This document shows positions 16,241 to 17,693 of a stretch of DNA of 64,000 nucleotides, in pieces. Source of the DNA: Methanoregulaceae archaeon. Lineage in GTDB: Bacteria; Armatimonadota; Fimbriimonadia; Fimbriimonadales; Fimbriimonadaceae. The notes under the pieces were generated by a model. The model ran no database searches, was not told where the DNA came from, and saw nothing but the letters and a program-made list of their open reading frames with translations. Where the stretch lies: positions 1 to 64,000 of the forward strand of contig JADZEW010000015.1 in assembly GCA_020850325.1 (NCBI GenBank). The letters are read 5' to 3'. Numbering within the stretch: position 1 is the stretch's first letter; each line of letters starts with the position of its first letter. The translations under genes were made by a program, and so were the position numbers.

Positions 16241-16645
16241 ATGGCGCAAGAAGATCTGTCGCCGATCCGCCATGCGCTCGGGTTGGCCCGAGAGCGAGGG
16301 TTCGCGGAGGTGGTCTTGGAATATGACGATGTCAAGTTCAAAGCCGCCCTCCAGCCTGCCGCCAAGTCGGCGAGCCGGCCCGCACCGTCCTCGGCGAGCG
16401 ACGATGCACCGAGCGAGCCCGCCCTCGCCGAGGTCACCGCAACCCTGGTCGGCTATGTTCAACCCGCCCGCCAGCCGGTGCAGGTCGGAGATCAACTCGA
16501 AGTCGGCCAAATCGTCGCTTCGGTGACCGCACTGGGGATCGCGACCGATGTCGAATCCGCGGTATCGGGTGAAGTGGTCGAGGTGCTGTTCGAGGCGAAT
16601 CAGCCGGTAATGTACGGCCAGTCGCTCCTTCGGGTGAAGCCGTGA
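16241..16645 (+). CDS. Biotinyl-domain protein lacking the biotin lysine (BCCP/BADC-like)
   Basis: A 134-residue protein built like the biotin carboxyl carrier protein of acetyl-CoA carboxylase: an N-terminal helix (PIRHALGLARERGFAEVVLEY), a Pro/Ala/Ser linker (about 38-62) and a C-terminal biotinyl barrel (about 66-134; VGDQLEVGQIVASV, SGEVVEVLFEANQPVMYGQSLLRV). At the hairpin where BCCP has EAMKM, this protein reads TALGI, so the biotinylated Lys is replaced by Gly99. It cannot carry biotin. Similar lysine-less proteins (BADC) in plants and some bacteria bind acetyl-CoA carboxylase and damp it. It is GTGA-coupled to a pilin-like gene and followed by uppS. A TAGACT hexamer 9 nt upstream of the ATG suggests a near-leaderless start. 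Confidence 0.8.
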   Translation: MAQEDLSPIRHALGLARERGFAEVVLEYDDVKFKAALQPAAKSASRPAPSSASDDAPSEPALAEVTATLVGYVQPARQPVQVGDQLEVGQIVASVTALGIATDVESAVSGEVVEVLFEANQPVMYGQSLLRVKP

Positions 16646-17004
16646 GCCGTCGTTCCGGCCAAACTCTCGTCGCTTCCTTGATCGTGATCGTGATCATCGC
16701 CATCCTCGCCGTGACCCTCTTGGGGGGTAGCGGCAAGAGCTCGCGCGCAGATGGTCTGGGCCGCACGCTTCCGACCCAAGTGAAACTCAAAGCAAAAGAT
16801 GACGCCTGCATGAGCAACCTGCGCCAGGCCCGCGCGGGGATCATGATCGCCCGCAGCAATGCCGACGACGCGCCTCCCGCCAACCTCGGCGAGACCGGAC
16901 TGAGCGCGGACTTCCTCAAGTGCCCGATCGGCGGTGAGCCCTTCGCTTACGATGCCGCGTCCGGCACGGTGACCTGCCCGCATCCGGGCCACGAACAGTA
17001 TTGA
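16642..17004 (+). CDS. Small membrane-anchored pilin-like protein
   Basis: A 120-residue protein starting with GTG 16642 inside the stop of the previous gene (GTGA). It has one N-terminal hydrophobic helix (about 8-28, LVASLIVIVIIAILAVTLL) after a short positive segment, like type IV pilins, though a clear G/F-TLxE cleavage site is absent (GQTLVAS). The exported part has CMSNLRQARAGIMIA, matching the C-x-x-N-x-x-Q helix of Armatimonadota-type pseudopilins, and a C-terminal Cys pair (LKCPIGGEPF, VTCPHPGHEQ) that may form a disulfide. Function unknown. It is coupled by overlap to both the biotinyl-domain gene and uppS (TTGA). Confidence 0.65.
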   Translation: MSRRSGQTLVASLIVIVIIAILAVTLLGGSGKSSRADGLGRTLPTQVKLKAKDDACMSNLRQARAGIMIARSNADDAPPANLGETGLSADFLKCPIGGEPFAYDAASGTVTCPHPGHEQY

Positions 17005-17693
17005 ACCAAGTTCCCACGCACATCGCGATCATCATGGACGGGAATGGGCGCTGGGCCCAGAAGCGAAGCTTGCCTCGTCTGCTCGGCCACCGCGAAGGCT
17101 ACAAGACCCTGCGCTCGGTGCTGCTCTACGCCAGCGAACGAGGCATCCGATATCTGACCGTGTACGCCTTCTCGGCCGAAAACTGGCGTCGCCCCAAAGA
17201 TGAAGTCGACGGGCTAATGAAGCTCATCGAGCGGGCGGCGCGCGACGAGCTTCGGGTGATGCACCGCAACGGCGTTCGGGTGCGCGTCGCCGGCCGAATG
17301 GACGAACTTCCTTCCGGCCTCCGCCAAGCGCTCGAAGATGGAATGGCGACCACGGCGGGCAACACCGGCATCACATTCACGCTCGCGATCAACTATGGCG
17401 GGCGAGCCGAGATCGTCGATGCGATGAAGAAGATCGTAGGCGAGGGCATTCCTGCCGATCAAATCGACGAAGAAACGGTGGCCGCCCACCTCTACAACCC
17501 GGATCATCCCGAACCTGATCTCATGATCCGCACCGCGGGCGAGATGCGGTGGAGCAACTTTCTTTTGTGGCAGTCTGCATACTCAGAGTTGTACGTAACT
17601 GAGAAGACTTGGCCGGAATTTGACGACAAAGAGCTCGATCGGGCGATCGAGGCGTTCGCGGGACGAACGCGTAAGTTTGGAGCGCTGGCTTAG
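17001..17693 (+). CDS. uppS: Isoprenyl transferase (undecaprenyl diphosphate synthase)
   Basis: A 230-residue cis-prenyltransferase that extends farnesyl diphosphate with isopentenyl units to make the C55 lipid carrier for cell-wall and surface polymers. The P-loop and catalytic Asp are in IIMDGNGRWAQKR. Further conserved segments are GHREGYKTLRS, YAFSAENWRRP, NYGGRAEIVDA, DLMIRTAGEMRWSNFLLWQSAYSE and the C-terminal WPEFD. The start is TTG 17001, overlapping the previous stop as TTGA, so translation is coupled to the pilin-like gene. No cdsA follows here, unlike many bacteria; cdsA is at 41.2 kb. Confidence 0.95.
   Translation: MNQVPTHIAIIMDGNGRWAQKRSLPRLLGHREGYKTLRSVLLYASERGIRYLTVYAFSAENWRRPKDEVDGLMKLIERAARDELRVMHRNGVRVRVAGRMDELPSGLRQALEDGMATTAGNTGITFTLAINYGGRAEIVDAMKKIVGEGIPADQIDEETVAAHLYNPDHPEPDLMIRTAGEMRWSNFLLWQSAYSELYVTEKTWPEFDDKELDRAIEAFAGRTRKFGALA

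Follow-up and report, generated by a model that had tools for sequence, protein, structure and literature searches.

A lysine-less biotin carboxyl carrier protein homologue from the accC operon of Armatimonadota: candidate for a non-catalytic subunit of acetyl-CoA carboxylase or a regulator of this enzyme

What does a biotin carboxyl carrier protein (BCCP) do if it lacks the lysine to which biotin is attached? This question is raised by an ORF in the window, a 64,000 nt stretch of a contig from a Fimbriimonadaceae genome (phylum Armatimonadota). The ORF encodes a 134 aa BCCP homologue designated here AccB-1. The first-pass annotation, made from the sequence alone, proposed a role comparable to that of the plant BADC proteins in acetyl-CoA carboxylase (ACC) and a coupling to a pilin-like gene and to uppS. 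The following features are relevant:

16241..16645, plus strand: AccB-1, lysine-less BCCP homologue, 134 aa (BCCP architecture, phylum-wide orthologues, AlphaFold2 model, structural match)
16259..16348, plus strand: N-terminal alpha-beta part of AccB-1, helix 7-19 and strands 23-28 and 31-36 (profile match, secondary structure)
16523..16552, plus strand: hairpin VTALGIATDV of AccB-1 with Gly99 in place of the biotinylated Lys (alignments)
16642..17004, plus strand: pilin-like protein with a single hydrophobic stretch at the N-terminus (Pfam N_methyl at E 5e-4, narrowly missing the cut-off)
17001..17693, plus strand: uppS, undecaprenyl diphosphate synthase (Pfam PF01255, E 2e-82), overlapping the pilin-like gene by 4 bp

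AccB-1 is a complete BCCP composed of an N-terminal alpha-beta part, a linker and a biotinyl barrel. The C-terminal half matches the biotinyl/lipoyl barrel (Pfam Biotin_lipoyl PF00364, 27.9 bits at a cut-off of 22.1 bits), and the N-terminal part resembles the BCCP N-terminal domain in profile and secondary structure. Searched against the PDB, the family profile was matched best by full-length E. coli BCCP (4hr7, E 8e-16), with profile positions 4-132 aligned to residues 21-175 of chain 4hr7_B. In the AlphaFold2 model, pLDDT values are 86-91 for the barrel, 55-67 for the N-terminal part and below 50 for the linker. Among solved structures, the model is closest to the BCCP chain 4hr7_G of the E. 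coli BC-BCCP complex (72 residues aligned at rmsd 1.0, Z 14.1). The hairpin V-T-A-L-G-I-A-T-D aligns to EAMKMMNQ, and Gly99 (codon GGG, 16535-16537), located in turn 98-99 of the model, lies opposite the biotin Lys. This bears out the initial description of a BCCP homologue in which EAMKM is replaced by TALGI. The biotinyl domain is, however, not of normal length as assumed at first: Compared with canonical AccB, about 5 residues are missing from the barrel, which has no 'thumb' loop. Between two conserved glycines, AccB-1 has 11 residues compared to 16 in 30/30 canonical AccB-2 (see below) and 10/10 outgroup AccB. Thus, AccB-1 shares with bacterial AccB/BCCP (TIGR00531; E. coli 4hr7, 1bdo) the full-length architecture, the fold and the operon position by accC, but differs in the missing Lys, the shortened thumb and a TIGR00531 score of 54 bits, below the equivalog cut-off of 115.2. 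The AccB-2 of the same genome is likewise under this cut-off (89.6 bits). Since the thumb is absent from most AccB-1, the binding mode may differ from that of canonical BCCP, i.e. a thumbless AccB-1 need not bind as canonical BCCP does.

The substitution is shared by relatives. The sister species (L109, Fimbriimonadaceae) has the same hairpin, and the Lys column is Gly in all 39 Fimbriimonadaceae loci sampled. At the level of the order (Fimbriimonadales, 51 loci) Gly was found 50 times, Thr once and Lys never. A sequencing error at Gly99, which the first-pass annotation had named as a reason to discard its idea, is ruled out by the agreement of the sister species and all family relatives. Comparison of window and sister species yielded dN 0.021 and dS 0.244 (dN/dS ~0.09). 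This value and near-universal retention rule out a pseudogene. Judged by these comparisons, AccB-1 is a conserved protein under purifying selection, neither an error nor a decaying gene. The N-terminal part is conserved (IRHAL..AR..G...V), and the barrel with its hairpin is conserved at least as well.

The lysine-less state is not a local oddity either: It is order-wide and arose many times in the phylum. Among 119 AccB-1 loci, the Lys column contains Gly (63), Lys (38), Arg (11), Thr (3), His (2), Ser (1) and Asp (1). Six families (f9, f12, f13, f21, f26 and f28) mix Lys and non-Lys AccB-1. When the Lys/non-Lys label was mapped onto a phylogeny of the linked AccC (quick method), it changed at least 9 times, and well-supported branches (95 or more) required 8 of these changes. 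Because Lys is present in every AccB-2 read and in the outgroup AccB, loss is the likely direction of change as far as can be read from the alignments. The thumb did not disappear as a result of Lys loss, as it is missing from Lys-bearing AccB-1 as well and a loop of 16 residues occurs in some AccB-1 devoid of Lys.

A genuine carrier is encoded elsewhere in the genome, as the first-pass annotation had suggested checking. AccB-2 of the window genome (G000:C26:9786, L003) has an intact EAMKVF motif. Outside the reduced genus g29 discussed below, AccB-2 was found in 66 of the 69 genomes of the phylum that were searched; the three genomes in which it was not detected (G157, G211, G235) are 74, 93 and 86% complete. 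All 30 AccB-2 read have the EAMK Lys and the 16-residue thumb segment. AccB-1 and AccB-2 are homologous over their whole length (end-to-end alignment of the AccB-1 family profile with AccB-2 of the same phylum, hhalign probability 99.7%). They form two clades with support 96 when the hairpin columns are removed (72 columns, quick method). In contrast to AccB-1, AccB-2 has, in addition to the intact motif, the thumb (SPSPSSPPF), and it is not linked to accC. The idea that Lys was lost only where AccB-2 exists and retained where it is missing was rejected, as AccB-2 is present also beside Lys-bearing AccB-1.

The usual gene row in Armatimonadota is efp, a ~370 aa membrane protein gene (outside Fimbriimonadaceae), accB1, the ~125 aa pilin-like gene, accC, nusB and folD. 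In 103 of 119 loci, accC is located at most 1 kb downstream of accB1 on the same strand. This row resembles the gene order efp-accB-accC-...-nusB-folD in Bacillus, so that accB1 occupies the place expected for AccB. The ~370 aa multi-span membrane protein has a Cys cluster; its gene separates efp from accB1 in the majority of other families (L066, L067, L079-L083 and other non-Fimbriimonadaceae loci). Its N-terminal 200 residues have no Pfam match. The window genus departs from the usual row: accC-nusB is found at G000:C1:257250, away from accB1, and uppS comes next after accB1 and the pilin-like gene, with 4 bp overlaps (GTGA and TTGA). Among the 119 loci, uppS adjacency is restricted to the window genome and its sister. 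Since accC moved off in the window genus, uppS is a recent neighbour and the pilin-like gene an old one. Hence, the proposed coupling to both genes holds for the overlaps and for the pilin-like gene, whereas the link to uppS and the lipid carrier reflects a genus-level rearrangement; an old association with uppS is ruled out. A mirror image of the window arrangement was observed at G045:C2:65480-67474, where accC directly follows the pilin-like gene and accB1 is elsewhere.

Nearly every near-complete genome sampled retained AccB-1, except those of genus g29 (G029 and G230; 1.5 Mb, 97% complete), which belongs to the family of the window. In these two reduced genomes, neither AccB-1 nor AccB-2 was found. 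An ACC-type AccC was not found and only a PCC-like biotin carboxylase is left; AccD proper was not found and only a partial carboxyltransferase match was obtained. Both genomes seem to be devoid of ACC altogether, which suggests that they depend on outside fatty acids. The joint absence, as far as gene content tells, ties AccB-1 to ACC within the window's own family, as one evolutionary event.

We propose, with a probability of about 0.62, that AccB-1 is a non-biotinylated, non-catalytic subunit or regulator of ACC, analogous to BADC and of separate origin. According to this model, accB1 would be the AccB-type gene of an accB-accC operon that is ancestral in Armatimonadota. With the biotin-carrying AccB-2 present, AccB-1 could have been freed from the need for the biotin Lys and have lost it repeatedly, the site becoming fixed as Gly, with one Thr, in Fimbriimonadales. 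AccB-1 would join the AccC/AccB-2 subcomplex through its BCCP-like N-terminal part and the barrel. There, it might either aid assembly of the subcomplex or lower its activity by displacing AccB-2, as proposed for plant BADC. At the sequence level, the model is built on homology, loss of the site, conservation, the accC operon, the presence of AccB-2 and the joint loss with ACC; binding of AccB-1 to AccC/AccB-2 and the direction in which it acts are what we infer. The BADC-like role assumed in the first-pass annotation has thereby gained strong indirect support (accC operon, AccB-2, purifying selection, loss with ACC), and its uppS link and local character had to be given up. The following counts against a role in ACC: In the window genus, AccB-1 stays with the pilin-like gene while accC moved. 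The role of AccB-1 might therefore follow the pilin-like protein rather than AccC. In addition, the place beside accC is an inherited one and could persist after the function has changed.

This leads to a doubtful alternative, according to which AccB-1 and the pilin-like protein form an envelope module and the single-span protein holds AccB-1, hence ACC, at the membrane. The pilin-like gene adjoins accB1 in 107 of 119 loci, sits between accB1 and accC across the phylum and still overlaps accB1 by 4 bp where accC moved. Its product fits no curated family well, has a conserved C-terminal motif (CP..Y.YDP.TG.V.CPHPGHE) and was not found in 98 cyanobacterial genomes, a search performed there in the absence of a positive control. 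The orthologue is also missing in the ACC-less reduced genus (best match 4e-6 vs 1e-43 in the window), and a precedent exists in CTI, which docks plant ACC at the membrane (PMC7712654). However, six genomes (G081, G166, G155, G137, G187 and G104) keep AccB-1 and AccC but lack the pilin-like orthologue, and with a prepilin-type topology its C-terminal part would lie beyond the membrane, separated from AccB-1 in the cytoplasm. Both points speak against a general need for the pilin-like protein, which may serve as anchor or sensor.

In E. coli, overproduction of AccB represses accBC. By analogy, AccB-1 could be an autoregulator of acc expression, with the N-terminal part under selection and the barrel relieved of biotin. 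The conserved N-terminal part and the position of accB1 ahead of accC in one row in most genomes would agree with this. We consider it slightly more doubtful still, as barrel and hairpin are conserved no less than the N-terminus and accB1 of the window genus is conserved although it is away from accC. Replacement of Lys by six different residues in different families might point to a remnant of carrier duplication that has no function of its own, is only loosely constrained and is heading for loss. Such a fate is very improbable in view of the low dN/dS, Gly throughout the family and retention nearly everywhere save in the ACC-less genus, which already disfavour it. A move of AccB-1, together with uppS, to envelope lipid carrier supply has the 4 bp overlaps of the accB1-pilin-uppS row in its favour and can practically be dismissed on synteny, as uppS is a neighbour in one genus only and accC is the usual one elsewhere.

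Plant BADC (biotin/lipoyl attachment domain-containing) proteins have 25-30% identity to BCCP, lack the AMKL motif and bind BCCP and BC (PMC11926652). Whether they act as assembly glue or as inhibitors is disputed (PMC11926652; PMC7712654). The plant enzyme has been described as the only one with non-catalytic BCCP-like subunits (PMC11926652). In a search of open-access literature, we found no lysine-less bacterial BCCP. The fused BC-BCCP in the paper on Chloroflexus ACC has an intact motif, unlike AccB-1. Like Arabidopsis BADC1-3, AccB-1 is a BCCP homologue devoid of the biotinylation motif in a genome that also encodes a true BCCP. Both are linked to biotin carboxylase, in the case of AccB-1 by genomic evidence (accC operon, joint loss). 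In contrast to BADC, AccB-1 is bacterial, encoded in the accC operon and mostly thumbless. Because Lys-bearing relatives are found inside the same bacterial AccB-1 clade, its origin is probably separate from that of plant BADC, which were compared by description. At most, AccB-1 would function in the manner of BADC, and it is not classified as one.

Parallel losses of Lys, with the rest of the protein conserved, suggest that the non-catalytic role came first. The chances are about even that the phylum evolved, many times in parallel, a BADC-like non-biotinylated subunit from an operonic BCCP, and thus an ACC with a catalytic and a non-catalytic carrier, perhaps anchored to the membrane through the co-encoded pilin-like protein. 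The same operon harbours related AccB-1 proteins that have the biotin Lys and others that lack it, a natural series for the role of a second carrier in ACC, the enzyme of the committed step of fatty-acid synthesis. This series from Armatimonadota would allow the second-carrier role to be tested without plant genetics.
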